Source: Haliclystus octoradiatus
Lineage: Eukaryota; Cnidaria; Staurozoa; Stauromedusae; Haliclystidae
NCBI GenBank assembly: GCA_916610825.1
Contig: OU744448.1
Location: 17,297,936 to 17,361,935 of the forward strand
Direction: 5' to 3'
Length of the DNA stretch: 64,000 nt
The notes below the pieces were generated by a model that saw only the letters and a program-made list of their open reading frames with translations, was not told where the DNA came from and did not search any database. Position 1 is the first letter of the stretch. Each line of letters begins with the position of its first letter. The translations under genes were made by a program, and so were the position numbers. This document shows positions 1 through 43,700 of the stretch, piece after piece.

Positions 1-173
1 AAATATGTCTGTTTTCGGACTATTTACAGGAGTTTGTCTGAAATATTTTGGAGCTGGAGTCGGAGTAGGAGTCTACTTTTCTTACATTTACGGAGCCGGA
101 CTCGGAGTCAGACCCTTCTACAATGCCTTTTTTCGGATTCGTAGTCTGAACATTCTGACTCCGTACACCTCTG
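1..173. mobile_element. Right end of a hAT-like nonautonomous element (truncated by window edge)
   Basis: The stretch is rich in GGAGTCGGAGT-like repeats and ends with GACTCCGTACACCTCTG (157-173). That is the exact reverse complement of the left terminus of the 1.46-kb element at 34034-35489. It therefore looks like the right end of another copy of that family, with the rest lying left of the window. The small open frame across it has no gene-like character. Confidence 0.6.
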
Positions 174-231
174 ATGAGACATGGGCATACACATAAATAC
201 GCAGTTTGATTATCTCTTATCTTTATCTCAC

Positions 232-3200: not shown

Positions 3201-6200
3201 AACAATATTTAGCTTTGGGATCACAGGGAACGTAGCAAACATCTATTATACACTCGACAATCAATCTACATACCTCCATTGGGTAGCATAGGGGCACCAG
3301 CAGATTTTCCAGGCCACTTGTGTCCACTCCAGCCTTTCTCGAATGACCTTGGGCGAATAAATCCGTCACGTGACTTTTCATCGTTAATATTTGTGTTATC
3401 TGATTCAACAGGTTTCGGTGATGTTAAATCTATAGGAGAAGTAAACCCTGGCCAAAATTTTTTCTCTTTTCCTAACAATAAATGAATATTTTTTTTTACA
3501 AACAATGCAAACTTCGGAAGAATTTACACCAAAACAACAATTTGATGCAACATAATTTGTTTTGTTTACTGCATCAACAAAGTGAGTATATTTTATGCTG
3601 CTGCTATGTTTACAATGTGATTTAGTTGGTTATTCTGTTGTTTTTTGATACCAAGGCCAGGGTTATGAAGATATTGTTTGAATTTATTACAGTTATCATC
3701 CATTTTATGATATTAATAAACAATCCATATTCTTTATGAAGCAAAATTCAAGATTACCGTAATCTGTCTCAATAAGCAGGATAGGGGATTGAGACATTTA
3801 CACATGGGCAACATATTGCAAAGAATATGTTCTAAAAAGGCATGCAGTAATGTGAAAGAAAATACAAAGCAATTATTAACACACCATCAATTAGGCTGCA
3901 TCATCTCAAAAGGTGAAGAGGCTGCAAGTCTGTGCAATATTTGTTTCATCGGAAATTTACAATCAGAAAATGTTCTAGTCAAAGTTGATTTCAAGAACTC
4001 TTTGCAGAACTTGCAGACATTTGTATAAAAAGTTCATGAACATTTAACGTTCATGGACAGTTCATTAAAGCACGAACTGTTCCTTGCATAAGAAAAGACA
4101 ATGAACTCCTCAAGAGCTGGCTCAGAATGAAGCTCTGGGATATACAAACATAATGACAACGACCAGTAGAATAACATTAAATCAGCTAGCAGCCACAGCA
4201 CTCAAGATTCAGGTAACGTAGCATTCCTTTTCAGGTAGAGGGCATAATTTAACAACAACACGCTATGTTGCAATCATCTGGAGGCTGTTAAGACCTGTGA
4301 AACAAACTGAAAATGTTGATAAATCAGTGGAAACTGGATACTAGGCTAACCAACTGCCACTCCACGTTATGCAACACCGACACACTACATCAAATTTCAT
4401 CGACAAAAATCTCAGTGATAAATCAAAAAGGAAACGGTACCTTCAATTTGAGCTACATCCACGTAGAGGAAATGTTACCGTGGCACGGATAAAAGGAATA
4501 CTGTGTTTAATTTTCGAGAGCACTGTCAAAAACTCAAAAGAAAAGCATTTAATAGGAATCATCAATGGCAACAATAATTTTTGAGCTTTGACAACGTTTT
4601 TCTATCAACGTTAGCCATTTTCAGGTTCAAATTATCTAAAAAGTAAGCCTATTTATTACAAAAAGTATCAAAATTGAAATTAACATTACGGTGCTTAAAC
4701 TATTTTTATACAAAATACATAAAATAGCTTGGCTTTTATTGAGTCAGAGCCTTTTTCCAGGGAAACGCTAATGAAGTTATATCAAAGATGTCTACTAAAA
4801 AAATAATACTATAGCCAGCCAATTTGCTAATCGTGTAATACCAACATGGAGTTGCACTGTTTATTACTTTAAAAAATACCTTTGAACGATTAGATTTTTC
4901 AAAATTTGTAAAATTAACTTTCAGAGGCTAAATGAATAAACGGCGAAGTTGGCACAAGGTCATTCAAACAGTGATGCTCAGACTGATGAGAGTATTATTG
5001 ACATTCACGATACAAATCGTTGGCGATATTTGTATAGTCCCCAGCAATTGTAAATCCATGTGTCCAATGTCTATTATAATTGCAAATTTACGAAGAGCAA
5101 TTTGATTCAAGCTGCAAATGTTTTATATTATTGGAAATATAACATTTGATAGTCACAAGGTCTGAGCCTCTAAGTTTACATCCTTAAAATGATTTGGTTG
5201 TTAGAACAGTTCTTGAACCTAATGGTCATCATTTATATGATGCTTTAAAAAAATAACCTTTCAATATCAAAGTTAGCATATGCTCATAATGTATATTATA
5301 TATGTTTTACTTGGCGGTCAATTTTTGTTTCATGGAGGTTGCTGGTGTTCAATGAGAGGTGAGATTAAAGTCTATAGATTAAGTGATACATTCTTCAATT
5401 TTTTCATAGTCAACGTTGAAGCATCATCTGTAGGTGCTGTTGATCAGTTAAGTACACAATGCAAAGCATGTTGCAAATCCTTTGGCATGAAAACAGGCCT
5501 GAAAGTCTAAAAGTAAATGAGTTGTTGATTAAGTCAGAAGATTGTGACAAACCAGTTGCAAATCAAAAGAAAGAAATCAAAGAATATTGTGGCACATACC
5601 AAAACAGCAAAAATGCAACAAATTAATCATGATTGGTCTCAACAACAGGTACAATTTTCTTAATTGAACAATGACATGAGTGAAGCCAATATTTCACACT
5701 GCACAATCATGTTCTGTTGTTATAATCCACAGATGGCAAAGGTCTGTATTGTTTCATGAATCTTGAAAGCCATGATTTCACATAAGAAACCCAACCAGCA
5801 CTACGAACCTAAAATCGCATGATAATCGTATAACAACCGCATGAAAATCGTGTGAAAAAGTACAAGATTTCCACGCGATTTACGACTATAGTAAGGATGT
5901 TTTTTTTAAGGGAGATTCAAGAGGGTTGAGCCTTTTATTCTCAACAGATGGGATTGACCCGTTACAAAAAGCTGCAAAAAGCAGATCCATGTGGCCAATG
6001 AGTGTGAGTCTGCCAAATTATCCAAGAAAAATAGAAACTTGATTGGCTCAATAATTTTACCTGGTATAATACCATCTAATAATGGCAAAGAGCCATATAG
6101 TTTACAAGCTTATATTAAATTATTGGTTGATGATCTTAATAGCTTGAATGGAACTGTTATTTATGACTCTTTTCGTGGCGAAAATTTTGTTATTCGTGTA

Positions 6201-9200: not shown

Positions 9201-12200
9201 ATACCACGTTGTCAGAAAGAGTGACAGAGAGTGGTCAGGTGCTTGGACTGATTTGGCAATTGAGCAGGTTTTGATGCGTAGCCTGAAAACAAGTGGTGGC
9301 TTAACTGGAGGCAGTGACTTTGATGAGTAGCAAAGATTGTCATGGATTTTATCTATAAATGCCAGCATGTGTGGAGTTCAATAGAGCAATGCTAGAACTT
9401 ACAGGTGTGAATTATAAAACTGGTGAACAGAACAAAGATTTGTCTGAAGCTAGACAAAAAAAGATTGACTTAACAACGATATCATACAAATTGCATTCAC
9501 GAAATAAATTTAGTGGGTCAGTCTTCTAATTAACTAGATTACAGGTGTGTTGCAAATGAAAAGGCAAACCAACACTCCACAAGGTCCATTGGCTGTAAAG
9601 CCCTTTCAACTATGGATGGACAGCATGTTTCTGGACATGTGTTTAAAAAATATATAACTGTGGTTACAATGACATTAAAAATGTTACTTAATTTGGATGG
9701 ACAAGAAATTCATGTGGATCCACAACTTTTATTCCAGAGAATAATTTTAGCATCTATGCTTTAAGTTTAGATCTACAAAGTATATTCAGATATGAACTTG
9801 CACATTCCCTTCTTCATTATTTGATACAAGTTTGATGCTTCGTGAAGCTCACAAAGCAGAGATTGCAGATGAGATCTGGGAATTAGCTAAATCTCCTATC
9901 AATTTAGTAGAAAATGTTGAACAGTTTGTACTGGATGGAGGAGCTCTACTCCATAGAAATCTATGGCCGCCAAAAAGTACCTTTGGAGATATCTGTGTCT
10001 TACACTGTAGATATGTAAACAAAAAATATGGATTTCCAATAATTTTCTTTGACGGCTACAGGGAAGAGTTATCTACCAAATCTGTTACCCATCAGCGTAG
10101 AAAACAAAGTAAAGTTGGATTAAGAGTTAAAATAGCAAAAGACCTGATTTGTACAATTAAAAAAGACGACTTCATTTCCTTCCTTCCTTAAAGAGATGAC
10201 TTAAAACAAGCATCTATTGATAAGACTGACAAATTTATCTTATACAATTGTGATAAGAAAAAAGGTAAAGGCCGCCCACGTAAGATAGACCATCCCGTTT
10301 TAGCGAGGGAGAGAGCTGTATTGAACACTCTTCAACGTATTCTACCTTTATCAGTTGCTACTTCATTATCACCTGTTGACTTTAGACTTGCACATATATA
10401 TGGCCTCCCTAAAACCCACAAGCCTGTAATATCAATGAGGCCGTTTCTCTCCGCAACTAATTTGTATAATTTCAAGTTAGCAAAATGGCTCGAAGAAAAG
10501 CTTCAACCTTTGTCTATAAGTGATTACAGTGTTAGTGATATATTCAATTTCGCGGAAAAAGCACAATCTCTAGAGTTTTCACAAAACGACATTTTCATAT
10601 CATATGATGTAGAATCATTATTTACAAACGTTCCTGTTGATGAAACTATTGATATCATTGTAAACAGAGCGTTCCAGGATAATTGGTTTAGTGACACAAA
10701 TGATTTGATGATTACTAAGGACCAACTAAGGAAACTATTAGAAATAGCGACAAATAACCAGCTATTTACCTTTCAAGGAAATTTATACGAGCAAATAGAT
10801 GGCGTAGCGATGAGGTCCCCTCTTGGACCGTTGATGGCAAATGCCTTTATGTGTTATATCGAAGACAAACTAGAAAAAGATGGTGTATTACCTGAACATT
10901 ATTATAGATATGTTGATGACACACTCACCTTAATGGAAAGTCAGGAAAGTGCACATAAGTTTTTAGAAGTATTAAATCAAGCTCACCCTGCATTTAATTT
11001 TACCATGGAGTTACCCGACAAAGGCATAATATCATTTTTAGGCATCACTATTGACAAAACGAATGAAATAATAGACTTGGTGTTCATCACAAGAAAACAG
11101 ACAGTGGGTTATTATTACAATATCAAAGCCATGTTGATAACAGTTATAAAACATCTTTACTAACGACGATGCTTCATCGGGCTTCCCGATTATCTTCAAC
11201 TGTTGAAAACTTTAATTTAGAATGTAATAATTTAAGAGAGACATTTATTAGCCTCAAATACCCATTTGACCTAATTAATTATTACATTAACAAATTTAAA
11301 AAGGAACGTATTGAGCGTGAGCCTGATTTGCCAGTTGCGAGTAAGAATCGTCACGGAAATGACATCAATTTAATTCTAGCCTACCTTTCAAAGATCAAAT
11401 TCGGCTAATTCACTGAAAAGGCAGGATTGGCTGAAGTAAGTGCAAAAATCGGAAAATCAATTAAGCCGGTATTTACAAGTAAAAAATTGATTGATGAATT
11501 GCGGACATGTGAGCCTAAGCCGGCTGTATTGTCTCATCAATGCGTTGTTTATTGTTTTGAATGTGATTCGTGTGAAGCGAATTATGTTGGGTTCACTTCC
11601 CAACACTTACATCAATGTATTGCCGGACATTGCAGCTCTGCTGTTGGTTTGCATTTCCGCAACGTTCATCAACAAAACGTGAAAGACAAACACCACACTT
11701 TTAGGGTTTTACGGAAATGTAAAAATAAATTTGATTGTTTGATTCATGAGATGCTCGCAATCAGGCGGATCAAACCGACGCTCAATACGCAATCTGATTC
11801 AATCAAATCTAAATTGTTCTCTGCATAACTGTATTGTCTAACGTCATTAACACCTTTTTATTGTATTATGTAGTCTATTCTTTGTTGAATTTTTATCACA
11901 TTATACTGTAAAATTTTAGTAAGTAAAACATATAAATATTCATGTATTTTAAATATCCATCCTTTTTAATTCATAATCGCTTGAAAATGTCATATTAAGT
12001 ATAATGACAAAACGTTGCAAAATTACGCCTTTTATAGCTTGTCTTTCTTACAGACTTCCTTTCCAAAGTAGAAAATAAACAAGATTTTATACTGATGCTG
12101 TCAGAGTATCTTCATGTGTCTCTATGTCTATGTTTTCATCCATCTGGTGATGCAGACAGCTTTGTGGTAAAAGCAATAGAAAGTTTCAGGTATCAGGATA

Positions 12201-15200: not shown

Positions 15201-18200
15201 GTACACCTCATTTATGCTTATAGGAGCGTCTTTACTCTATGTGAAATGTTCGCAATGCATTACACACTATACTAGATTCATAGGGAGCCCTTTAGTCGTA
15301 CATGTGTCCGCTTACTTTCTGTGTACAAGAAACACTCGCTATACACAACAACATGTAACAGTGTAACCTCCCATTACAGTCAACTCGTTCTAAATTGGTA
15401 TCACAAAAATAAAAAATAAAAAATAAAAAAATAAATCCACGCATTACAATTGTATTTATTTTGGGATTCCACATATCGTCATCCGTATCCGTATTTATTT
15501 TTTAAACTAAATGCTTCGGCAATCGTCTGTGACCATTTTCAAGAGTGAAAGAAGTATTATTTTACTATATTTCTAATTTATGACTTGAACTTACTAGGTT
15601 ACCTAATTGTAAAACAAACAAACAAAAATTTCAGTTAAGAAAGTTAACCAGCATGACGAAAATATTGATCAGGTGATTGAGATGAGACGAACAACAAGAC
15701 AAAGGATAACGCCGACACAAAATCCTGAAATGTTCTATGGAAATTGGTGGAATGAACAATCTGAGCAAAATGGTGTCAACACTTCTGAATGTTTATCTAT
15801 GCGAGCCAAAGTCAATTGCGGAAGAAATGAAATCATCCAATGCTGAAGAATGGAAGATTGCAACTGACACAGAATTCAAATCATTGATGAACAACAATAC
15901 ATGGGAGCTAGTCACATTGCCATACAACATGAACATTGTAGGATGCAAATGGATGTTCAAAACCAAGCGCACTGCAGATGGTACGCTGGATCAATGCAAA
16001 GCAAGATTAGTTGTACAGGAATATTCCCAACAAGAAGGGACAGACTATGACGAGGTTTTCGCTCCTGTTGCACGATACACATCAATCAGAACAATCCTAA
16101 GTCTGGCTAATGCTACTAACATGGAAGTGCACCAAATGGATGTACAGACTGCATTTCTGGATGGTGAACTACATAATGAAATCTACATGCGACAGCCTGA
16201 TGAATATGTTGATGAAGACCATCCTGATCGAGTTTGTAAACTCAAGAACAGTTTGTATGGACTAAAGCAATCTGCAAGATTTTGGAATGCGGCAATCGAT
16301 GCATACTTGAAGAATGCGAGGTATAGACAAAGTACCGCCGATACACGTGTCTACAAAAAATTACCAGTATCTTCGAAAGCCAATAAAGCAACTATCATCA
16401 TTGCACTATATGTAGATGATCTGATCATCGCGTCTGACGATAGCAACGAGCTGGCAAAAGAAAAGAAGATTCTTGGAAAAGCCTTCAAGATGATCGATCA
16501 AGGCGAGATTCATTTCTGCCTCTGAATGTGCATCAAACGAGACAGAATAAAGAAAGTGATGGTTATTGATCAAAAACAGTATTTGGAGAACATATTCAAA
16601 AGATTTGGCATGGATGAATGCAAACCTGTGTCAACACCATTGGAAATTGGACGAAAATACCAAAAAGATATCAGAAGAAGATGAAATTGCAGACAAGCAA
16701 CAATACCTAGCCGCCATTGGAAGTCTGGTATATGCAAGCAAGGCAACAAGACTAGACATTTCAGTTGCTGTTGGAATTCTTACTGATTCCAGCACTCAAC
16801 ACTGACAAGGAGTAAAGAGAATATTTAGATATCTAAAAGGAACACTTAGTGATGGTCTGACATTTGAATCTCAAGCAAGTCCCAGACCTGTGTTAATTTA
16901 TAGAATCCCATCAGATTTAATATGAAGTACACAAAAGAGAGGACACACAATTAATATGCACAAAATATCACAGAGAGAAGAAACCCAACATATAGGAGAG
17001 ACCGGGGTCACATCAGACGGGGGTGACTTCGAACAGAACGGTTTGAGTTTAAATAAAAATAAAATCTCTCAGTATGTTAAAATAAAAAGGTAAAAAATAC
17101 ATATTGCCAAAATTTCAGGTAATTTCAGCAAGTAATAAAATGTAATCATTGTTTGAAACTTTGTCCCGTTTTTGTGTATTAATTGTTCTCGGAGAAAAAG
17201 TTCAGCAAAGAAAATCCATGCGACCAACATATTGATATTTGGTACAATTTCTAAGCCAATGACATTTGTGCCTCATACTGAAGTTTCATCAATGTTCGCT
17301 TCGAAAATTCAACTGTAGAAATGACTTCCTTCGATGTTTATAAATGGGTAGTCTGCGTTACAGACTGCGATTCATTCACAAAAGAATAGGGTGTGTGTGA
17401 TTTGCTCAGTTATTTGTCCCACCGCTCCACGAAAACCTGGAGCGGAATTTTTTGATCAATGCATGGTAAATCTATTGTTATTAGTGAAAAAATTCATCAC
17501 CTCTGTTCAATCAATTAATTGTCATAGCTACAAAGCGTAAAATAGAATTAATAGCACATAATTTGTGATTTTTATTGTTACGACAAATAACGGAGCAGGA
17601 ATCGGCTAAACAAGGATTCAAACACGCAATTAGACAGCACTTCTGGATAATTTTTCATGTTTGTGTTTGTACATTATTGACAAACAGAACATTTGGTTTA
17701 AATAAAGTTTTCAAAGAAAGGTTGCATAATATTCGAAAACAAGCATATTAATATTTAAAATGTGTTTAAATCACAGCTTTTGCACCTTCGAGTCATTTCA
17801 ACTTAGTAAACAAAGTAGTGTGAGAATCCCAGTGAGAATCACCTTAAAGGGGCAAAATTGACCGGCGACCGCTGCGAGCTCAAGTTGAATTTATGCTTAG
17901 CGTAATTCAACCGTCTCGCTTTGAAACTATTGTTATACGCAAGCCTAATTTGTTATAAATTCATGTCAACAATGAACATTGTGTTATAAACAATAAACAT
18001 GCACACGATCCTAAGTGTGTAACGCTTGCCGGTCATTTTTGCTCCTTTTTAATCAAACATTATATTATGCTACATCAGTTTGATTCTGATATGAGGCCCG
18101 GTCAGAGAAACCGAGGAATTCACACAGACCCTATTCTTTCGTGAATGAATCACGGTCTGTGACGCAGGCTAATAAATGGGGTGATTACGGTCAGAGTGTC

Positions 18201-21200
18201 AAGGCAAATAGCAAAGCCGTTAAGAAATAAAAATATCAAGCTGTAAAACAATGGTAATCCGATATTAAGTGAGTGTCACGTTTCTCATTCCAATAAACAT
18301 TTTAGAGCATGCCTGATTTGTCTTTTTCAATTATCAGAATGTTTTGTTTTGGAGCCATAAAAATAAAACAGCAACGAAATATTGAACATTGCCACAGCAT
18401 CACAGAATTACACAGAACAATTAGCAGGCTTTCTATAAAGTGTTATGGTTTTGCTTCGTGTATTGTCCCTTTAGACAAAAGTGTTGTGTGTCAATATTTT
18501 GTGGAAAATAACAGAGAAATTAAAAGGTAGCGTGAAAAGAAACGGAAAAAATAAAAAAGTAATGGATAATACAATACTAATTTTCTAATGAAAATGTAAC
18601 TAGTTACAATTAGAAGTTACTTTTCCAAATAAGTAATTAGTTATAAGTAGAAATTACTTAAAAGTAACGATTACAAGTAACACCGTTACATTTGTAATAT
18701 TTATTCCTATCCCTGTCTATTGGACTAAGAGGAAACCAAAAATTACTCACAAGAATGTTGATGATCTCGAAAGAAAAACATCCAGGTTGAAAAAATGTTA
18801 CATTATACCCGCTTTGTCTTCAGTGCTGTTAAATTTTGAAAAGGTGGAAGGGTCTATTAATCAAAACCCAGAAGTCATCATTGATGCTAGCCTGTGTCAC
18901 AGGCTGCAATTCACAAATGCTATGCCAGTGGAAATTGATGGCCACACTTTAGTAGGACTTTCATATTCAATTACATTCTATTAATTCTGGATGAGTAGCA
19001 TAAGCTACACAACCAGACAACATTCTGACCTAAATTACATTCTTTTCTGTCCCACCTGGGGCATGCGTATGGAGTACACAACAGCAGAAAACAAAAGCAG
19101 GTTTTGAACAATTGACACTCTGTCGTCAGGATAAAGTAGCTTTATAAATAGATAACAAATTGTGATTATGTTGTGTTAGTCCGCCGGCCCACTTCTAAAG
19201 TCTTCAAAGAATACAAACTTAAGTTACCGGAATTTCTCCTAGGAAGATGTTTTGAAATAATTGTGATTAAAGTGATAAATAATTTGATATTTTACCTGAT
19301 ACATATGTTTTTATGCTGCAGAAGGTTATCAATTCACGCCATAAACTTTGTGTTTTTTCGAAGGCAAATCGGCCTTCTCCATTTTGAAAATTGAAATTTA
19401 CCGCCCTTCCATGCGCTCGTTCCAGTACTTTTCGTTCGCGTTACTATGGTTTCGACTACTAACAATATGGCAGCTTGATATTCGATACGTCTTGATATTT
19501 GATATTTGACCTTTTTAATTTGTTACGAAATAAAAATTATCGCGAAGGGCAGGTTGATCATGCATTATGTTTAGTTGTTTTTTGGCTAAACAGTTATTCT
19601 TATATTCATAAAGAGTTATATATTATGATATATGTTAGAAATGAATTGAATTGAATATGGAAAATGTAGAGAATCTGATTGAATCTGAGTTATCTAGTGG
19701 TAACATTGAAGACAACAACAGTGCAGAAGGTAAGAACACTTTGGCTTTATCCAATCGTTTGTCAGGTTTTGACTGTAGAAAACATCAATTTAAAGTCTTA
19801 ATAAATTGTAGATGAGAGGTCAGAATTGACCACCAAAGCTGCAAAAGTACGTATTCCTGGTATAAAGACAAAAAGACTCAGTTGGAATGGATGTCTTTGT
19901 GATTGCACCGAAAAAATAAATACTCCAGAATTCAGAGGTAAACATATGTTGATCAGGTTTAAGGTCAAAACGTTACTGCAAAAATAATTATCTGCATATT
20001 AAAATTTCCGATAACTATGAATTGGAAATTTTTGCATAAATATAGGCCAATATAGATATATTTATTTTCAATTCATTTCATGTGAAAATGTGACTATTCA
20101 ATTGCAAATTATATACGGGTGCCGAAGGGATATATACATTAATTACAAGATCGACCACTTTAGACGGTCCATAACCTCTAGCAATTTATAATTATTCCAT
20201 CTTATGAGTTTTAATTTATAGCCCCCCCCCCCCTAGGGCCGGATCTGGAACAACTTGAAACTATAATTCAACTGAATTATCTGACTCAATCTACCAGACC
20301 GCTAGCAATGTCAATTCTTTTTCAAAATAAATATTTGATTATTTAATTCTTGTATGTTCGGTATAACTTGAAATTAATCTGCTTATCTAACTTATGCTAC
20401 CTAAAATTTATTGAAAAAATATTCAAGTTAATTAATTTATTCTATCCGGTGTAGATCTACGTCAATTTCGTGAACAGAGTTGGAGTACATTCATAATTGC
20501 CGCTAAAAAGCAGAATGATAAAATTTGGAAATTTGTCGAACCTGCCAGTATTGGAAAGCCTAAAGGATATTACCACCGTCGATGCTTCCAAAGATATGTT
20601 CAAAAACTAGTCATAGAAACATTGGCCGAACAAGATGAAGCAGATCAGGCTTCTGAAATGGAATTGTCGGGAAGTGATTCAGACCATGAAGTTCCTTCCA
20701 AAAGATCTTCCCGCCAGAGCACCAAAAGAATTGATAAATCAAAATGTATATTTTGTCAAGGTTAGTAATCCGGCTATAATAATAATATTTTATATAATAT
20801 AGCGCTATTTCAATAAAAATATCCAATAGCGCTTTTAAATATATACAATTAAAAATGGTAAAAAGGGATATAAAAATAAATTGTATTTATTGGCTATGGT
20901 AGTATAATCCTTAAATATAATCGGACGATATATGATATATATACAGGCTCTCCTTCAAATGACATGAACGTGAATTATATGTATGTCTTTATAGATGAAA
21001 AGAAAAGAAAAGTACCCAAAAGTTCAAGAAAAATCGTTGAGCCACTTACAAGATGCACAGGTAGTGCAAATGCCACAGCTGGAGAATCCAAATTAATATA
21101 TGTTGCAAAGCTTCGAAAGGACCACGATCTTTTGAGGGAGCTGGAAGGTGGGCCAGCGGTAGATCCGATAGCAGGTGATACCCTGTATCACAACTCCTGT

Positions 21201-24200
21201 TATTCTAACTACACACACAAAAAAGCTGTAGATAAACTTTTGTCTGAGCAAAGTGGGGTATGTGAGAAAGTTATTCACATCGACTCCTATACCGAGGCAT
21301 TTACCCAAATTGAACCAATATTAAACGAAATAACGGAAGGTCAGAAAATTATGTCATTGACAAATTTGCGTAAATTATACATTGAAGAACTCTCGGCAAT
21401 TAATGGCTGTGATTCATCAATATCGTATAGATCCGAACGTTTGAAAAAAAGGATCTTAAGCCGCTTTGACAATCGTATCGAATTTTTCCAACCAAAAGAT
21501 CGAAGAAAATCCCAAATTCTATTTGCGTCAGATATCCAACGCACAAAACTTCTCTCTTTTTTTGAAGCAGCTTCATACGAAAGTATAGCTAATGGTGACG
21601 GTGAAGAGAATGAGGAGACCAGTGACATTGATCAATTTTCTCTCAGATTAGGTGGTACTGTATCAGCCGAACAAGAAGCAATGAAAATAATTTTTGAATC
21701 CGCATCAGTCATTAGGGCCACCATTCTGAAATCTAACTTCACCTCTGTTTGGCCAAATTTAGGTAGTGACCTAATCAGCAATTCTGATTCTTTGCCAATT
21801 ATTCTATACAATTTTTTTTCCTGGGTTATACATGGAGTCGAAAAAACTTCAGAATTCACAATGGAAAGAATAATCTTAGAAAAAAAACTTGAAGTGAGAG
21901 TTAATTCTATTGCGTCTGATTTACTGTTTGCTACGTCTCAGAGTCGCAAAGTCTCACCAAAACATATTTTATTGGCTACTACTATCCACCATTTGACTAG
22001 AAGTGAAAAAATTATCACAATATTAAACAGAATGGGGCATTGTATTGCTATGTCTCAGGTGCATGAAATCAACACAAAATTAGCTGAACAGCAATTGAAC
22101 CATCTAGAAAAAAATACGTATCTACCCACCACCGTTTCATTCGGTCCTTGGACAACATTTTGTTGGGATAACAATGACCTATGTGAAGAAACCCAGACTG
22201 GATCAGGTACGTTCCATTGCACTATGGGCATTGTTATCCAACGCCGTACCTTTGGGCCCCAAGGGTTTGTAGAACAAACAAAGCGTTCAAGGAGGAGGTC
22301 CTTACAGAGGGCTTTTCCACCTGTTCTCCCTTTCATCCCTGAAAAAAAAGTAAATTCTAACTCTGAGAATTCAATTTTTGATTACGAAGCAAAATCTTTG
22401 TCTTATGAAAGCTTGCAATTAGTCCCTTTCAAAATAGATCTTCTTTGGCTTATTTGCCGTTATGTCGAATCCCTGCAGGTCCCTAAGACCAATAGAATTC
22501 CTTCATGGTCCGGCTTTAATTCGATAATCAGCAAACCTAAAATCAAAAGCAAGGTCAGTTATTGTCCTGTAATTAATGCTCCGCCGACACACCTTGATAC
22601 AGTCTATACCCTTATGGTTAGATCTGTTTCAATGGCTTCTGCACTAGGGCAACCCAATACCGTTATTGTCATGGACCAGGCTGTTTATGCCAAGGCAGTA
22701 GAAGTGAAGTGGAAGTGCCCTGGAGAGTTCAAGTCTGTTGTTTTGCGTCTAGGAGGGTTCCACGTTGCTTGCACCCTGTTGGCTATTATAGGAGTTAGAT
22801 TTAAAAACAGTGGACTATTTGAGGTAATGATTGAGTCCGGAATTCTTGCCCCCGGTTCTCTTAATGGTGTTGTTTCTGGCAAGCATTACAACAGGAGTTT
22901 AAGGTGCCATAAATACGTTGCAGAAGCAATGTGCAGACTGATGTTCGAAGAGGTTGATTCTGGTGAGGAGGTGTATATTAACAGCGATGGAGTAAAAGAC
23001 AATATTTTTACTCCACTTTTAAACGGCAATAACGATCCTCTTGTTAACGACGTTGAAAGAAACGATACATTAATTCGCTTAATGACGATTTTGGGCAAAC
23101 TCAAAAAGTTTGAATCTCCTGTTTCAAAAATGTGGTTATCTTATGTTGATATTGTTTTTTTACTTTTGAGATTCATCAGAGCCACTAGAAGCGGAGATTG
23201 GAAGCTCCATTTGGCATGTGTTCATGACATGTTGCCTTGGTGCTTTGCGTATGACAGACCCAATTATTCTAGATACATGAGCCTTTATTGGTTTGAAATG
23301 GCCCAACTAAATGAAACACATCCAGCTGCGGCACAAGCCTTTGAAGATGGTGAGTTTTGTGTCCAGAGGTCACCGCATTCTTTTTCTCAGGTACCCGTTG
23401 ACCAAACAATTGAACAGACCCTCAACAGGCAATCAAAAACACCAGGTGGAATCGTTGGTATCAGTTACAATGATGCTGCAGTACAACGATGGACTCTGAC
23501 AGCTCATGAAAGAGCTTCATTGTCAAGTCAATGCTGTGAGCTAGTAAATCTGTTTGATGCCGATGAAGACGGGCACAAAGATTGTCGGCAAAAGGTGAAG
23601 GAGAGAGACGAGGGTTGTATTCAGAGTGTTATTGGTGCTATTAAATCATGGTCCAATCCCTTTAAAGGACAAGATGACAATCAGAAGATTTACAATATCG
23701 CCTCCGGGGTAGTTGCTCCTTTGAACGTTCAGAAAAGTATGGATCAAGCTAAGGAAATTGGTATGAAGCAATTTCAATCATTTATTAGAGATAGATTAGT
23801 CAATTCTAATGTTAATTTTAACGAACCAATCCGTAAAAATAAATTGCTAACTTTTACATCCATAATTGCTAAAAGAAAAACAAAATTAGGATCAAAGGAA
23901 ATTCTTTTAAAGGCTGATGTCGCCTTGTTCGCACGATTTGCAGCTCTTGCTCAATCAAGATCTATGAACCTCAAAGATGTCATGTCTTACCCACTAGGGC
24001 CGTTGCCATGGTCACTGTCAAATCCGGATGGTACCATGTGCAAAACGGATAAATCCTCGATCATTAAAACCCTAGAAGAATCGTTCCCTTGTTCCATTGT
24101 TTCACAGCCAGAAAAAGCTATATTTATTATAGATGGAATGGCTTTACTACAAAGTTTTCCTGGCCTCGGTCGTTCCGCATTATTTAAGGATTATGCTTTG

Positions 24201-27200
24201 GCGATTCTAAAATCTATTCTTAGAAAACAACATCAGACCTCTAAGAGAATCGATGTTGTTTTTGATACTTACCCAGATGATTCCATAAAAACTAGTGAAC
24301 GAGCGAGGAGAAGTGGAGAATGCAAGATTGTGATAAGAATAGGCAATGGTGATCAAAAAGGACCCCATAGCTGGACAAATTTTTTAAAAGTCAGCGAGAA
24401 TAAATGTAACTTAGTCAATTTTTTAATCACTGAATGGCAGAACTCTTCGTACTCTAATGTTATTGGTTTCAATATTTTGTATGCAACTTCAGGTTCTCGT
24501 TGTTGGCAATTGTCTTCTTTAAATGGGAACGTTTCTTGTCTCCCTGTTGAATGCCTTGCCAGCAGCCATGAAGAGGCTGATACCCGTTTATTTTTACATG
24601 CTAAACATGCTGCGATGTCTGATGCTGATTGCAATACAATCATAATTGAATCACCTGACACTGATGTTGCAGTTATCGGCATCAGCGTAGCACAGCATTT
24701 CCAGTGTCAATTATTATTCAAGCATGGCATCAAGCATCGTATGCAGTTCTTAGATCTTAGTTTAATATCAAGCTCTCTGAATGAAAAAGCCGAAGGACTT
24801 ATAGGGATGCATGCTTTGAGTGGGTGTGACTCTGTAAGCTCCTTCAAAGGGAAAGGGAAAAAAACAGCTCTGAAATTATTTTTTGATGGTAAATTTGATA
24901 ATTTATTCTCTACCTTGGGCACCCAATTCTCTTCTATTCCTTTGATTGATGATTGCGAAGAGTTTGTTTGCGCTCTTTACGGAAAGTTTAATATTAAATC
25001 TGTGAACGAAGCTCGCTATCAATTGTTTTGCACAAAAAACTGCCAAAGTGCACAGCTTCCACCATGTCGAAGTACACTTGAATTACATCTTGAACGAGCT
25101 AACTATCAAGCGGCCGTATGGAGAAGATGTCTGGTAGCGAACCCCACAATCCCTAGTCCGATTGGGCACGGATGGGAAAAGGAAGAAAACATAATTGATA
25201 TTCTATGGCTAAAAGATCAACCAGCTCCACGTGAACTCCTGGCATTAATTTCTTGTGGTTGCAAAAAAGACTGTTCAACTAATGCCTGCTCATGTCGATC
25301 AAGTGCATTAATGTGCACCGATGTATGTGGGTGTAGTCTTAATTCAGCTTGCATAAACAGAAAAATCAATGATACCGCCGACACTGAAGATTTACCATCA
25401 GAAGGAGACGATGACAATTCATCTGATAGCGAATAATTACGTTATAGTTTCCATCCTCGTTTTATTTGCTTCGTTTAATTTTAAACTGTTACCGCAAGTA
25501 ATTTTCTTATTGGAGAGATTTTTACTGCTGTCCGAATTTTACAAAGACGTTTAATAAATACAAAGTGTATAAGTATTATATTTTACACACTGCATTTTTT
25601 GTATCTCGTTTTTTATAGTAATGTATATATAGCTAATATCAAAGCATGCATATACTGTATGGCCAGTATTTTTATAGTCAATCAAATTTAACGTAGCATG
25701 CTATATCTTTTTTACCGACCATTTACTGAAATGGTATGTGTCTTGTGATGACATTGCCTGATTTTTTGTATCTCGTTTTTTATAGTAATATATATATAGC
25801 TAATATCAAAGCATGCATATACTGTATGGCCAGTATTTTTATAGTCAATCAAATTTAACGTAGCATGCTATATCTTTTTTACCGACCATTTACTGAAATG
25901 GTATGTGTCTTGTGATGACATTGCCTGATTTTTTGTATCTCGTTTTTTATAGTAATATATATATAGCTAATATCAAAGCATGCATATACTGTATGGCCAG
26001 TATTTTTATTGTCAATCAAATTTAACGTAGCATGCTATATCTTTTTTACCGACCATTTACTGAAATGGTATGTGTCTTGTGATGACATTGCCTGATTTTT
26101 TGTATCTCGTTTTTTAAAGTAATATATATATAGCTAATATCAAAGCATGCATATACTGTATGGCCAGTATTTTTATAGTCAATCAAATTTAACGTAGCAT
26201 GCTATATCTTTTTTACCGACCATTTACTGAAATGGTATGTGTCTTGTGATGACATTGCCTGATTTTTTGTATCTCGTTTTTTATAGTAATTTATATATAG
26301 CTAATATCAAAGCATGCATATACTGTATGGCCAGTATTTTTATAGTCAATCAAATTTAACGTAGTATGCTATATCTTTTTTACCGACCATTTACTGAAAT
26401 GGTATGTGTCTTGTGATGACATTGCCTGATTTTTTGTATCTCGTTTTTTATAGTAATATATATATATAGCTAATATCAAAGCATGCATATACTGTATGGC
26501 CAGTATTTTTATAGTCAATCAAATTTAACGTAGCATGCTATATCTTTTTTACCGACCATTTACTAAAATGGTATGTGTCTTGTGATGACATTGCCTAATT
26601 ATAAATTACTACTATTATATAATAATAAGATAACTACTTTCTATGCATTCGTACACTGCATATTGAAAATAGTTTTATAGTCAGTTAAAATTGATACTGC
26701 ATCCTTTGTATTAATTAGACTATTAATGATGAATAGGGTGTCTCTAATTATGGTGCATTTTTATTTTGTATACTACCTATACATTTGAATATACCGTTAT
26801 CACGAATCATTATAATAAAGTATTTCAAGTATTATAGTTATTCCTAAATAGATACTTTCGATACATGAATAATATTAACATTCTATTTTCAATCAAGAAA
26901 GTCTATGGATGAAGACTGCAGACTTGTTATCACAGTCACATTACAAGACTCGTGAATAATACATCGGTAATAATTGAACAACATTTATGGCCTATAAAGT
27001 ATATATATTCTCATAATCATCCAGAATGGATTATCATTCTATAATTATGTTACGATTTACCATACGGCAAATGCGAACAATAATTTGAACATTTTCAACT
27101 TAATCATTTATCTAATTATTTTATGTAAATAATGTTGAACAACTGCATATCTTGCTACGTGGCCAATACACATTATCGGTCTGTTTACTTCTTTTACAAG

Positions 27201-28841
27201 TCATTATTCGTTTGTATTTGTACTAAGTTTGCCAAACATTTATGCTTTCAAGCGGCTAATAATTAAATGATTCAAGAAAAATGATGTTAAATTTGTAGTT
27301 TTTCATGTTCTTTCGGATAAAGATGTAGTGATGTATTCAAATTAGAATGCGATACTTTTCAAGTTGGGAAGAAGGACCGAAATTGATAAGAAAAGTTAGA
27401 TCAAAACAAAGATCTGCCATATTGTTTATAGTCAAAACCATAGCAACAGAACGAAAAGTACTGGATCGAGCGCGTCCAAGGATCGGAAAATTCAATTTCA
27501 AAATGGAGATTGCACATTTTACTTTCAATTTCTTAATACAAACCGTAGACAGATTTAGTAACCTTCTGCTTCACCCAAACATGTCTAACAGGTAAAATAA
27601 TATATTTCATATGTTTTTATTTTCAAATATCTAAAAAAATCTTCCTCGGACGGATGTAGGTAACTTGAGTTTCGTCAAATAGCTATTGGCCGGCGGACTA
27701 TGTGAGATCATTTTAAGACACAAAGTGCACAACAGCACCATAGTGATAGCACACCAGTTATAAATAATCAAAAGGGGTCTAGAGATAACCAAATCCTCAA
27801 GTTGAAATGGAAGTAATAAAAACCTTAAATTTAAATTCTCATAATTTATTAAATCGCATTGCCTCCGTAATTGGGATTGAACGCATTATATACAGAAAAA
27901 CATGATATAAAAGCTTGATATGGATGAGTAATGATGGGACATTGCCCCCAGTTCTCTAATGAACCAGCCATCACCTTTTTAAGTTAAATACAATGAGAAT
28001 GAACCTTGTAAGATACCTAAATTTCAACTCACCAAATTTTGAGAACTGTTCGTCAACAGGTATGGATCGTTTCTTCTTCCGCCCCCGTCCAACACCACGA
28101 CCACCAGTTGCAGCAGACCATAACTTTTCATATTCACCTGGTAATAATTTCATTAAAGCAATGACTTATTTTGCCGTAGACGAGTATACTTGGTTAAAGT
28201 TGGTTTTAGTATCAAGGGGTCTCCTTTGATGGAATCTGTTGCTGTTATTGACCAATAGAAACGTGGCTATCAGGGGAACCCCCTTTCACATGGAACCTTA
28301 TGGCAAGATATAGTCCAATATTGAAGCAAATTGAACATATTTCACAAAAAGCTGTTACAAGCATGGTGTTTCAAAAATGAGCATTCTTAAACCAAATATA
28401 AAGAACACAAACCCACTACATGCTAATTGAAAATCTTGTGGCATGCGATGTTCACAGTTTTTCCCAAACTGCAGTCGGATAATTCTTAACTAATCAAATG
28501 ATGTGACTATTGCATGTTACATGGATGGTGGTTGTCTAATTTGTTTGTCTAGCTTTTAACTGGTAATAACATCTCTACACCTGTGAAAACAGTACAGGAG
28601 TGAATAAACTGTTCATGAACAGTTCAGGAAAATTGGAGCCATCCATGAACTGTTCATGAACTCCTGAACTGTTTTTCGCAGTGGTGAGTATCTGATGTTA
28701 ATTATTTGTCTTATTACACACTTTTCAAACTGTCCTGGTTTTGCTGTCTGTATTTACATTGTGAGATTATTATGAACTTACCAGCAGAATAAAATCTTCT
28801 CTGTGTGCTTTGAATTGCTGTTTGGTAGTTTTTATTTTGTC
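232..28841 (-). CDS. MRPS5: Mitochondrial ribosomal protein S5 (uS5m), multi-exon, 3' end outside window
   Basis: This encodes the small-subunit mitoribosome protein that carries the bacterial S5 fold. Exons in transcript order are 28841-28782 (tentative), 28137-28033, 3471-3274, 3190-3068, 2432-2386, 1859-1802, 1261-1199 and 368-232. Every join after the first is GT-AG with matching codon phase. Recognisable blocks are a Lys/Arg-rich GRGVGRGRKKKR, FWPGF, GWSGHKWPGKSAGAP (animal-specific S5m motifs), then the S5 core with GNRNGVVGWAIGKGQ and GHGLRCQRIVRTICDLAGIKD. The last visible exon ends in phase 0 before a good donor (GTGAGA at 231), so the C-terminal exon(s) lie left of the window. The start codon is unresolved. 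The 28841-28782 exon encodes a Gln/Ser/Arg-rich run ending RRFYSA, typical of a mitochondrial presequence border. One intron (3472-28032) has swollen to 24.6 kb with transposons. Confidence 0.9.
818..1061 (+). repeat. SINE body copy (tRNA-derived family), 5' truncated
   Basis: This segment matches, in opposite orientation, the body of the element at 13320-13633. Shared blocks include GGTCAACTCAGCCTTG, CATCAAATGAGTACCATCT and the tail motif GTACGAGTGCCTTTGGTAGG. The tRNA-like head present in the other copy is missing here. It lies in an MRPS5 intron. Confidence 0.6.
1993..2225. repeat. MITE-like repeat rich in TTCATGAAC, family member 1
   Basis: It begins CCCCTGTGAAAATAGT and contains many palindromic TTCATGAA boxes. 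Related sequences occur at 28578-28684, 38160-38480, 39070-39210 and 49855-50000. It lies in an MRPS5 intron. Confidence 0.5.
2817..2854. repeat. Short perfect-arm inverted repeat
   Basis: The arms GATATCTCACAAG and CTTGTGAGATATC flank a short loop, forming a 13-bp hairpin within an MRPS5 intron. No associated gene is visible. Confidence 0.6.
3500..5900. other. Intronic DNA without recognisable genes
   Basis: This is the first part of the giant MRPS5 intron. It has a short run of TTCATGAAC-type repeat near 4030-4095 and several small open frames with no family resemblance I can name. One frame at 3789-4028 has a cysteine pair in CNICFIGNL and might be a protein relic, but I cannot identify it. 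Confidence 0.4.
5932..7640 (+). pseudogene. CACTA/EnSpm transposase relic (Transposase_21 and DUF4218 regions)
   Basis: A broken gene keeps its old order in several exon-like pieces. At about 5940-6240 there is a block with STDGIDPLQKA, WPMSVSLPNYP and LLVDDLNSLNG followed by YDSFRGENF. A Cys piece, GYRGCSSCNLKG, lies at about 6333-6389 after an intron. RQYLSIDDPLR and a Lys-rich run with the acidic DAMH motif follow at 6480-6780, and the DUF4218-like HILIHLFEAIKTNGP...WMYPYERL at 7470-7570. In EnSpm transposases these blocks occur in this order. Frame changes near 6020 and 6490 and in-frame stops show that it is dead. Terminal CACTA repeats and target duplications were not located, so element borders are unknown. 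The family is clear from the combined motifs; exact exon ends are not. Confidence 0.7.
7880..10179 (+). pseudogene. Relic of a large transposon-type protein with PIN/FEN-like nuclease end, 5' part
   Basis: These pieces collinearly resemble the intact 1648-residue protein encoded at 19657-25436, but they belong to a distinct lineage. Visible blocks are an N-terminal stretch with LIEYFGDNILIAVVDGKSS (~8020-8100), RFLRLGGFHLTTYEY (~8490-8525), AVKHMLTGKAISRAIRGH (~8600-8650), SDREWSGAWTDLAIEQ with SGGLTGGS (~9210-9315), and the first half of the nuclease-like domain with IWELAKSP, FVLDGGALLH and FFDGYREELSTKSVTHQRR (9832-10165). Stops and frameshifts are frequent. At 10179 the frame is cut by a Penelope-like element and resumes at 12053. 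I name no function beyond the nuclease-like motifs; the rest of the protein is unknown to me. Confidence 0.65.
10168..10179 (+). repeat. Left target-site duplication of Penelope-like element 1
   Basis: GACTTCATTTCC here matches GACTTCCTTTCC at 12053-12064 in 11 of 12 positions. The host reading frame (...KKDDF then DFLSKVENK...) is continuous across the two copies. Confidence 0.7.
10321..11163 (+). pseudogene. Penelope-like reverse transcriptase
   Basis: RT motifs appear in order: HIYGLPKTHKP (motif 1-2 region), SYDVESLFTNVP (motif A with catalytic Asp), GVAMRSPLGPLMANAFM (motif B, with Arg where Gly is usual), YVDDT (motif C, the catalytic YxDD) and ISFLGITID (motif D/E). This spacing and the LPKTHKP block are typical of Penelope-like RTs rather than LINE or LTR enzymes. 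Sequence from about 10225 (GKGRPRKIDHPV) is in frame upstream, so the ATG at 10321 is not a true start. The frame is broken just after 11163; related thumb-like sequence continues in another frame at 11169-11408. Confidence 0.85.
11427..11828 (+). pseudogene. GIY-YIG endonuclease domain of Penelope-like element 1
   Basis: The domain reads VVYCFECDSCEANYVGFTSQ (the GIY and YIG positions), followed by an H-rich segment, then HEMLAIRRIKPTLNTQ, which holds the conserved Glu of GIY-YIG nucleases and the terminal P-x-LN motif. It is separated from the RT by a frameshift and a stop. In Penelope-like elements this domain nicks the target. Here the whole polyprotein is interrupted, so the copy is probably inactive. 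Confidence 0.8.
12053..12850 (+). pseudogene. Relic of PIN/FEN-like nuclease end, 3' part
   Basis: This continues the pseudogene cut at 10179. DFLSKVENKQDF is followed by GDADSFVVKAIES and VGDDTDLLILLCYHA, which carry the third to sixth acids of FEN-type nucleases. Then AFLVCDTTSRGFGK (seventh acid followed by a Gly/Lys turn as in the H2TH region), SAAGGMHFWLY, LRYRRYCENI, LPPTSATIKQHSYR and finally WIDHKYDFLPTQWGWKF. The same order is seen in the intact protein at 19657-25436 (HEEADTRLFL, PDTDVAVIG, GCDSVSSFKGKG, LPPCRSTLELH, GHGWEKEE). Frameshifts near 12310 and 12720 separate the blocks. Confidence 0.65.
12865..13170 (+). pseudogene. LINE endonuclease fragment
   Basis: The open frame reads IDLIYVNYTNGVIRSDAIH, then MGVSDHSLAFYVIK. 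The SDH motif with its catalytic His and the following hydrophobic strand is the C-terminal signature of APE-type LINE endonucleases. It is cut on both sides, with a stop near 13057. No RT is attached. Confidence 0.6.
13320..13633 (-). repeat. tRNA-derived SINE
   Basis: On the minus strand the element opens with a tRNA-like head: GGGGTGATTAGCTCAGTTGG with an A box, then a B-box-like GGTTCAAATCCCC at 13558-13570. The body that follows is shared with 818-1061. The head-to-body order marks a tRNA-derived SINE rather than a true tRNA gene, because no clean anticodon arm can be drawn. Confidence 0.7.
13790..14800 (+). pseudogene. Ngaro-type gag relic
   Basis: The fragments resemble the gag of the intact Ngaro element at 43065-44180. 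QPFIIGPGSSPISSKLVTK parallels its [19 protein letters not shown], then GKFVELGDL, KAFREHAAAANIVDWSVIN, and a decayed Cys/His segment near 14560-14660. Several frame changes occur and there is no RT or recombinase, so this is a gag-only remnant in the MRPS5 giant intron. Confidence 0.7.
14800..15640. other. Intronic DNA, nothing recognised
   Basis: No gene or clear repeat is visible apart from an AAAAAT-type simple run at 15407-15437. Confidence 0.4.
15640..16880 (+). pseudogene. Ty1/copia pol relic (reverse transcriptase)
   Basis: The copia RT is easily read: WELVTLPYNMNIVGCKWMFK, KARLVVQEYSQQEGTDYDE, FAPVARYTSIRTILSLA, VHQMDVQTAFLDGEL (motif A), LYGLKQSARFW (motif B) and ALYVDDLIIA (motif C, YVDD). 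A TGA where Gly is expected ends the main frame at 16525 (GEIHFCL then stop). Reading then continues through RFGMDECKPVSTPL, a frameshift near 16660, AAIGSLVYASKATRLDISV and a stop at 16803, then VKRIFRYLKGT. Sequence homology ends near 16880, before RNase H is complete. No LTRs, protease or integrase were found, so it is a dead, truncated copy. Confidence 0.85.
17338..18185. repeat. Inverted-repeat (foldback) element
   Basis: The arms at about 17340-17415 and 18105-18180 are reverse complements with small differences. Both contain GATTCATTCAC followed by AAGAATAGGGT and an AGTCTGCGTTACAGAC-like stretch. The interior is AT-rich without a coding frame. It is a probable MITE; terminal duplications were not resolved. 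Confidence 0.55.
18586..18715. repeat. hAT-like terminus relic
   Basis: On the minus strand it starts CAGGGATAGGAATA and continues with repeated GTTACTT/AAGTAAC boxes, the usual look of hAT ends. A related end lies at 60444-60546. No transposase is attached. Confidence 0.45.
19177..19480 (+). repeat. Left long terminal inverted repeat of the 8.5-kb transposon
   Basis: It is the reverse complement of 27405-27700 with moderate divergence and several short gaps. The outer 13 bp are identical. Conserved inner blocks such as CTTAAGTTACC, GCAGAAGGTTA and TCTCCATTTTGAAA suggest protein-binding or promoter sites. Confidence 0.75.
19657..25436 (+). CDS. 1648-residue transposon protein: Cys/His N-terminus, unknown centre, FEN/PIN-like nuclease end, CXC tail
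   Basis: Four exons join without breaks: 19657-19729, 19812-19937, 20455-20760 and 20995-25436 (stop included). All junctions are GT-AG in phase 1 and the total is divisible by three. The long open frame starting 20964 is therefore not the real start. Residues ~164-230 hold CIFCQ and later Cys/His (YHNSCYSNY), a likely zinc site. The centre has WDNND (D560), VMDQAVYAKA (D729), RLGGFH (H758) and CFAYDRPNYSRY (~D922). The C-terminal part aligns by motif with FEN1/XPG nucleases: IDG (D1215), VVFDTYPDDS (D1259), HEEADTR (E1362, D1364), SPDTDV (D1390, D1392) and GCDSVSSFKGKGKK (D1447). A Cys-rich tail (~1588-1625) resembles a CXC motif. It is intact and so possibly active. The nuclease reading is inference; the central region could hold a separate transposase core. 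Confidence 0.8.
25553..25558 (+). promoter_or_regulatory. Poly(A) signal of the transposon gene
   Basis: AATAAA lies 117 bp after the stop codon and just before the tandem array. Confidence 0.6.
25592..26598. repeat. Six-copy 167-bp tandem array inside the transposon
   Basis: The marker GTATCTCG recurs at 25601, 25768, 25935, 26102, 26269 and 26436, an exact 167-bp period. Copies differ by only a few bases, so the array is young or homogenised. Each unit contains AGCATGC and its inverse GCATGCT about 50 bp apart, plus ACTGTATGGCCAGT, a partial palindrome. A decayed further copy may follow at 26640-26710. Confidence 0.95.
27405..27700 (-). repeat. Right long terminal inverted repeat of the 8.5-kb transposon
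   Basis: This is the partner of 19177-19480. Small open frames on both strands here are by-products of the repeat. Confidence 0.75.
28578..28684. repeat. Compact MITE of the TTCATGAAC family
   Basis: It begins CCTGTGAAAACAGT and ends ACTGTTTTTCGCAGTGG, near-inverse termini. The interior is almost palindromic around AACTGTTCATGAACAGTT. At about 107 bp it is the best-defined member and shows the family's ends. Confidence 0.65.
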
Positions 28842-40700: not shown

Positions 40701-43700
40701 AATATATATTTTTACTGTTGTGAATTTAGTGGTTTTCTTCTTCCCCGACTAAGCTCCAATATTCCAATTGAAAAGCAATAAACTAATTACTCAAATTCAC
40801 AATCTACGTTTATTAATTGAAATTAGATGAATTATCAATGCAATCACTCATTGATGAGATCAAAATACCTACATTGTTATCTAGAAAACAAATCTCATGG
40901 TAGCATAAATTACATACAGCACTTGTTGTTATAACATACCTGTCATTGATGAAAATCCATGACTTTTGCACAAGCTCATTGAGCTTTTCTTTGTTGCCTA
41001 TGAGGTGGACATCAAAAAATATCAACAAGTTACATTTGTTTAATAGTAACATATTCGAATAGAGGATTAATTCAGTATGATAAGGGAAACCTTTGGAATG
41101 ATCTCCTGATTTGAATTTAATTCATGTTGCTAGCCAATACAATTATTTTATAATACAAAATGTAAAATAACAATCAAATATTAGCAATACGGTGTCCCAA
41201 AAGTGTGGGCATAGCTGAGTTAAACGTTGAAAACTTTTGATTTTGAGCGAAAGGGGATACGATTTTTTAAAGTTGTTAATTGTCCTTTTTCCTATACCGT
41301 AGTAAGCCCTCACATCATTCCGACTATTGTTCGAGTTTAGAAACAGTGACTGATCGAAAACAGATATCCAAGTATATTTAATATTAAACATCGTTGTTAT
41401 ATACATGTCCAAATTTAAAAATCGTTTTCACCTTTCTTTGTCATTTAGCTTCAGCTACCCTGATAGGTGTCAAATTTATTTTGTGTCATGTGCACTTAAA
41501 CAGAGTGTATCAAAGTTGATAATTCAAAATTAGATTGTGGAGAAAATAGCAGAACAAAATCCGTAAATAGTTAGTCTACTAATGATAATAATAATAATAA
41601 TATAACATTTATGATTAATTCTCTGTCTATTATTATTATCCAAGCCCTGCTATTTATTTATTGCACTGAGCCCTATGTCTATATTATAATACAGTATTAT
41701 ATTAGAGTATTATAATAAAATATTATAATATAGCATTTACATATGTATATATTTATGTTCTAGGTGCTTCACACATTCTATTTAACTACAATATTAACAT
41801 GGATGTAGGCCTAATCATTAAAAATATAGGGTACTAACATTAATATTATGATATTTATTTTTTTTAGCAAATCGATAATCACAGTACGGATAAGCAATAT
41901 AAAAGAAATGAGTTTTCAACTCGGATTTATATAAAGATCATGTGCGACTATCGTGGTAGACATTAAAAAGAGTTAAATTGTAGTGTGAGATAACTCAAAA
42001 GCATAACAAATAAAACTAATTACAAGCTAGACATACCCTTCAGTCCTTTACCGAATTTGAGTAAGTATTGATATGGATGGTCAATCTGCAGGTCAAATTT
42101 AATTGTTTGTAATAAAATCCTCTCATACATCAGGACTTCTTCCTACAACAAAAACAAACAAACTGCTACCATCTGTTGGAATTAAAAATAGCAGCTACTT
42201 ATCATGCCAGTCAGATGATTTATGTTCTGTAGTTGCTGCATCATTTGCGGCGTAAATCTCTTGTCCGTGCAGCTAGGCCTACAATTGAGTGCTTCTCACA
42301 TGCCCGGTTGTCATATATAATATGTTTCAAATTTAACATAAATTTGAAAATATTGGTTCATAAACATTGCTAATTGTATTGTATTTTGTCTGATGCAGTT
42401 ATGATCATTTAACAAAGTGAAACTCTGAGTAACAGCAAAAATGGTGTGTCTTTCTTGACTCTATTATTACTATTTACCGCTATGCTATTTACAAGCATTG
42501 AGTACTGTTCACCTGCCGATATGTTAAAATTTTTAATGTGGTTAAATCAAAGATTTAAGTGAAGTTAAAATGATGTATGGTGTGCTACTGTTAGGCTATC
42601 TAGGACCTGTTTATTAGTAGCGGAAGTGAACAAGATGCAATGATAAAACCGCAGCAGGTTAGCGGATCGACTACTGAAGCAATACGAGTCGGTGAGTGTA
42701 ACAGTACCCCTTTGTATGTGTGCGCATGTCTCAAAGGGCTGGGTGTGACAATCACTCTTGCCACCGTGACCTAGCTTGCTAGTTGCTTTCGAGAAGCTCT
42801 TGAATTTTCATGTTGCTACCTCTTTGAGAATCGTGAAGATCTTGCTTTTGCGAATTCTCCTATCGTTATCTATTTAAGCACTGGTTGCTGTTCTACTATA
42901 TTTACTCATATTTATCCTGTTTTACTATATCTACTCATATATATCCTGTTTTCCTGTTTTAAAACATCATTCATAATTATTTAAACATTATCTATCATTC
43001 GTTGTTTGTGGTTTATTCTGGATCGATATCTACTGTATTAAAACGTCAATAAAGTATAACAACTATGCCTGCTCAGCGAAAGACGAGAAACTCTCGTGAC
43101 GCCGCTTCGGCGTTGCAGTCGCCCTCAACCGTCGTTGTACCAGAATGTGGAACTTCGTTACTTTCTGCGCAAGATCGACAATCTATCGTCAAAGAAGTGG
43201 CACAAGAAGTTGTCCAATCTCTCCAGAGTATTCTGGCCCCTCATGCCTCGTCGACAGCTACAGAGGTTCAACAACCAGAAGGTATGTCTGAATGTCAATC
43301 GGTACCGAATTTTGTGGACATTTTTACTATGCCAGTCTCAGCTACCGATGCTGCTTCCGCAGTGAGTTCTTCTCTGTCCAGCAATCCTCCCCCTTTATCG
43401 ATGCCATCAACTAATTTGTCCTCTCACATTCAAACTCAAACTGCCGTCGCCCCCCAGAGCACTCCTGTCCTACACCAGCCGTTTATTTTAGGGCCCAGCT
43501 GTTCGCCAGTGCCGGCTAAGCTGGTAACTCAGATAGTGACCGGGAAATTCATGGATATCGGTGAGCTCTTACCTTCAGAACTAACGGAGAGCGAGCCGGA
43601 GCCCCAAGTCATGCTCAATGGCATGCTTGTTCTGACCACTACCCGAAAGAGATCATGGCATGCGACGAATGACATATTGTCATGGGTTGAAGCATTCGGG

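Follow-up and report, generated by a model that had tools for sequence, protein, structure and literature searches.

A probably autonomous DNA transposon of Haliclystus octoradiatus, likely of the AcademX kind, with a FEN1/XPG-like nuclease region behind a candidate DDE core

We describe an apparently complete, eukaryotic-type DNA transposon of the cut-and-paste class, 8524 bp long, at positions 19177–27700 of a 64,000-nucleotide stretch of the Haliclystus octoradiatus genome (the whole stretch analysed, here called the window). Its features suggest, with good confidence, that it is an autonomous member of AcademX, to which it is assigned by the published description of that group. Its gene appears to encode a candidate DDE transposase core followed by a putative FEN1/XPG-like nuclease, for which motifs and conservation give good support.

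Termini, gene model and relatives of the element

The 13-base terminus TAGTCCGCCGGCC reads inward at both ends of the element, and no other exact copy of this 13-mer was found elsewhere in the window. A gapped local alignment of the two ends places the left terminal inverted repeat (TIR) at 19177–19543 on the plus strand, best conserved up to about 19490, and the right TIR at 27349–27700 on the minus strand, best conserved from about 27410. The TIRs are imperfect and about 300–370 bp long in this alignment, and blastn pairs 19215–19473 with 27414–27672 at 71.9% over 263 columns (E 1.8e-31), a match that is beyond chance. The trinucleotide TGT lies directly outside both ends of the single copy, as a possible left (19174–19176) and right (27701–27703) target-site duplicate, which is compatible with a 3-bp target-site duplication (TSD). 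Its presence on both flanks would be expected by chance about once in 64 if the bases are equal, and a TA target site is also a possible reading because the termini begin with TA. An earlier note on this DNA had described long inverted termini of ~300 bp and an element spanning 19177–27700; the former is borne out by the shared terminus and the alignment, and the latter by the termini.

Within the window, blastn found no second copy of the element. The single copy would suit a domesticated host gene that is flanked by repeats through chance and is not a transposon, but the inverted termini, with the E value given above, end in the same 13 bases, and a disrupted copy occurs in a different sample as the relative L002 (described below), so that we consider this explanation extremely improbable.

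The transposon carries one gene on the plus strand, with exon 1 at 19657–19729, exon 2 at 19812–19937, exon 3 at 20455–20760, and exon 4, including the stop codon, at 20947–25436. The joined exons encode 1664 amino acids without an internal stop, and the three GT-AG introns are all in phase 1. The protein segment conserved in the relative L001 is encoded by exon 4; exons 1–3 are placed by splice consensus and open frame, because L001 reaches only into exon 4. The undamaged four-exon gene with three phase-consistent GT-AG introns of the earlier note was recovered, with its length of 1648 codons corrected to the 1664 residues computed here. The poly(A) signal that had also been claimed is present as a candidate AATAAA, read from the sequence at 25553–25558 on the plus strand. 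Between the gene and the right TIR, at 25594–26600, six 167-bp units are arranged head to tail with 98% matches; this tandem array inside the element is absent from the earlier note and, compared with AcademX, may be particular to the window copy or to its family.

Other mobile elements are visible in the window. A probable tyrosine-recombinase retroelement, which we take to be of the DIRS/Ngaro type, occupies 42529–49311, with a reverse transcriptase frame at 45597–47234 (RVT_1), an overlapping frame at 47132–48175 (Phage_integrase), and split direct repeats (42529–42828 with 48389–48688, and 48255–48415 with 49151–49311). The frame at 15710–16525, presumably Copia-type, has a strong RVT_2 match (E 3.5e-60), and the frame at 10192–11163, with an RVT_1 match (E 9.3e-09), possibly belongs to what we assume, by its look, is a Penelope-like element.

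A DNA pattern encoding HEEADTR and the adjoining downstream residues was used to seek relatives in genome contigs, where it had two exact matches. The first, L001, is a 6512-bp contig in a Planctomycetota metagenome-assembled genome, with an open 1466-residue frame that runs off the contig end; this frame shares 38% identity with the exon-4 protein along its length and 41% over the C-terminal region. A TIR pair cannot be seen in L001, because its upstream end is cut by the contig end, and a repeat search of it returned none. The second, L002 (positions 1–3431), lies in a Bathymodiolus gill-symbiont assembly (G002) and is a copy broken over two frames. Both probably represent eukaryotic contamination of assemblies filed as bacterial, which is supported by the finding that one of the 83 genomes in the family of G002 matched, namely G002 itself (the same 83 genomes are covered when the group is taken as an order). 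No relatives were found in viral contigs, which were searched with two queries of each of three kinds (protein, alignment, and DNA pattern), or in phages and plasmids by tblastn with the C-terminal part of L001. The mussel-associated L002 is in line with the amplification of Academ elements in bivalves, as reported in PMC10294476.

The FEN1/XPG-like nuclease region

The nuclease-like region is encoded at approximately 24129–24900 on the plus strand and is recognized by motifs, conservation in the relatives, and shuffle tests. Seven acids that would correspond to the catalytic set of the FEN1/XPG nucleases (D1231, D1275, E1378, D1380, D1406, D1408, and D1463) occur in the window protein in motifs starting at residues 1230 (IDG), 1272 (VVFD), 1376 (HEEAD), 1404 (SPDTD), and 1461 (GCD). 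All seven are identical in L001, in the contexts FDA, VPD, HEEAD, SPDTD, and GCD, and the pieces of L002, which cover the last five, keep all five, the final one in RCD instead of GCD. The ordered FEN1/XPG acid set proposed in the earlier note is thus present at the places given there and fully kept in one relative. The region has in common with the FEN1, XPG, EXO1, and GEN1 nucleases the seven acids in the same order and the contexts IDG/FDA, VFD, and a GxGxK helix-hairpin; unlike in these nucleases, it is embedded in a transposase, and the similarity lies below the reach of Pfam, phmmer, hmmsearch, and hhalign.

Pfam searches with the window protein (exon 4 whole and also in three pieces) and PDB sequence searches with the nuclease region gave no XPG/FEN1 match, and a block scan was built because these searches gave nothing. 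Six ungapped blocks were cut from four archaeal FEN-1s, and their best ordered placement was scored against shuffles; the spacing limits were chosen with the sequences of FEN-1 and of the window already known, a bias towards the hypothesis, and the shuffles ran under the same limits. The C-terminal 515 residues of the window protein scored 78.5, a value reached by none of 1000 shuffles (mean 35.5, maximum 61.0), and the score of the whole window exon-4 protein was reached by none of 300. L001 alone was weak: its C-terminal part scored 53.0, which 25 of 1000 shuffles reached, and 42 of 300 reached the score of its full frame. As controls, the N-terminal parts scored 43.75 (window) and 41.5 (L001). 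The joint alignment of the window and L001 scored 58.4; none of 500 column shuffles came as high, the best being 38.5. Judged by the 0/1000 and 0/500 shuffles, the ordered set of nuclease motifs is more than chance.

The individual blocks differ in how well they find the proposed motifs. Blocks 1 (IDG), 2 (VFD to R), and 6 (the GxGxK hairpin) all have their top-ranking position in the joint alignment where the proposed motifs lie. In the same alignment, the EGE block is placed on HEEAD, which ranks third for it, and the GTD block is placed on GCD, though GCD is outside its first three. The DxD block (DYD) is never placed on SPDTD in any placement, whether joint, with the window alone or with L001 alone, and SPDTD ranks third for it jointly. 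With L001 alone, the EGE and DYD blocks, the third and fourth of the set, are both placed off the motifs.

Profile and fold comparisons were also made. A profile comparison with the four archaeal FEN-1s, made by hhalign with two rows, gave 24.9 at a probability of 2.1% in the wrong register, the best of 30 column shuffles being 23.8. A search of G001 with Pfam PF00867, aimed at archaeal FEN-1 loci, matched four of 14 control genomes and yielded no loci. The AlphaFold model of the nuclease region, built with four alignment rows, was poor (pLDDT 41.7); strands and helices alternate in a PIN-like order, which is a weak indication at such a pLDDT. A Foldseek search with this poor model gave no matches at E 0.001 or better and no FEN1 among the 50 matches listed. 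Since there is no significant sequence or profile match to the XPG families or the FEN structures, the region is labelled FEN1/XPG-like and is not filed as a member of the family.

That homology searches and fold prediction gave no confirmation, together with the weak block-scan score of L001 alone, would agree with a C-terminal region that serves in DNA binding, being either a PIN/FEN-like fold that has degenerated and become inactive or some unrelated fold resembling the motifs. We regard this as unlikely, given that all seven acids are kept in L001 at 41% identity and all five of those covered in L002, and that the shuffled sequences in the tests of 1000 and 500 never reached the observed scores. 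The FEN1/XPG-like nuclease is the reading that we follow below.

The candidate transposase core and the probable AcademX assignment

Upstream of the nuclease region, at approximately 22020–23500 on the plus strand, lies a well-kept stretch with a candidate D/D/E set consisting of D576 (WDNND), D745 (VIVMDQ), and E828 (YVAEAM), whose catalytic assignment is putative. The set is kept in L001, the corresponding window and L001 motifs being WDN and FDN (D576), VIVMD and VVVLD (D745), and YVAEA and IVYEA (E828), and on these motifs the stretch probably forms the DDE core. The earlier note had suggested a structure-specific cut by a flap nuclease rather than a plain DDE enzyme; this contrast is not supported, as a candidate DDE core precedes the nuclease region. 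The L001 core matches Pfam DUF6589 at E 0.00097, below the curated cut-off, and the window core has no DUF6589 match. DUF6589 may be linked to Academ; a literature search on DUF6589 with transposon found no paper. The AlphaFold model of the core, built with two alignment rows, was unusable (pLDDT 33.1).

Three further Pfam matches were below the cut-off and were taken as chance, namely Glyco_hydro_2_N with the window core (E 0.086), and TcA_TcB_BD (E 0.025) and ParcG (E 0.28) with the C-terminal part of L001.

At 25251–25358 on the plus strand, comparison with L001 and L002 identifies a cysteine-rich, CXC-like tail. Its sub-threshold matches to TCR (PF03638) are limited to L001 (E 0.35) and L002 (E 0.058); for the C-terminal part of the window protein itself, Pfam returned no match. 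Pfam scans of the window protein over exons 3 and 4 matched no helicase family.

The AcademX nuclease is reportedly of the XPG type, a view said to go back to Kojima in 2020 and to Kapitonov and Jurka. According to PMC10045372, AcademX elements have 3- or 4-bp TSDs and AcademH elements 9- or 10-bp TSDs, a difference tied there to the encoded nuclease or helicase, and the AcademX nuclease is proposed to bear on TSD length. By this description, the nuclease-like region, the absence of a helicase match across exons 3 and 4, and the possible 3-bp TSD fit AcademX. AcademX elements are likewise DNA transposons with a nuclease, and their 3- or 4-bp TSDs would correspond to the possible TGT duplicate here. 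AcademH belongs to the same superfamily according to this literature, but it has a helicase and 9- or 10-bp TSDs, in contrast to the present element with no helicase match in exons 3 and 4.

The sole family signal of the core is the L001 match to DUF6589 below the cut-off, and the placement in Academ is by published description; both points would allow a DDE transposon from a superfamily other than Academ to have gained an XPG-like domain independently. Against this, the nuclease and the 3-bp flank repeats fit the AcademX description in PMC10045372, and such an independent gain appears very unlikely. The element is most likely ordinary in kind, a good specimen of the known AcademX group and not a new one. 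Novelty of the arrangement of nuclease and transposase is not supported either, since Academ elements with a nuclease have already been published under the name AcademX.

Proposed roles of the two putative catalytic regions

In the mechanism that we propose, the central DDE core would cut the transposon ends and join the 3' ends to target DNA at positions staggered by 3 bp. The FEN1/XPG-like domain of the same polypeptide would cut in a structure-specific manner. This cut would most probably fall on the 5' (non-transferred) strand, and it may serve either as second-strand cleavage at excision or as trimming of 5' flaps after strand transfer and gap filling. The cysteine-rich C-terminal tail and an N-terminal CxxC segment would probably bind DNA. 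We hypothesize that the structure-specific cut stands beside the DDE reaction and does not replace it.

A narrow literature search found no paper testing how the AcademX nuclease takes part. It is a tentative proposal, which we hold as possible, that one polypeptide combines both chemistries, with 3' cleavage and joining by the DDE core and cleavage of the 5' strand or flap trimming by the FEN1-like nuclease, and that the nuclease takes the place of host repair in fixing the short stagger and completing the junction. The Haliclystus copy has both of its ends, an uninterrupted gene, and a candidate for the TSD; such a specimen may serve to test what a flap nuclease contributes to a DDE reaction.
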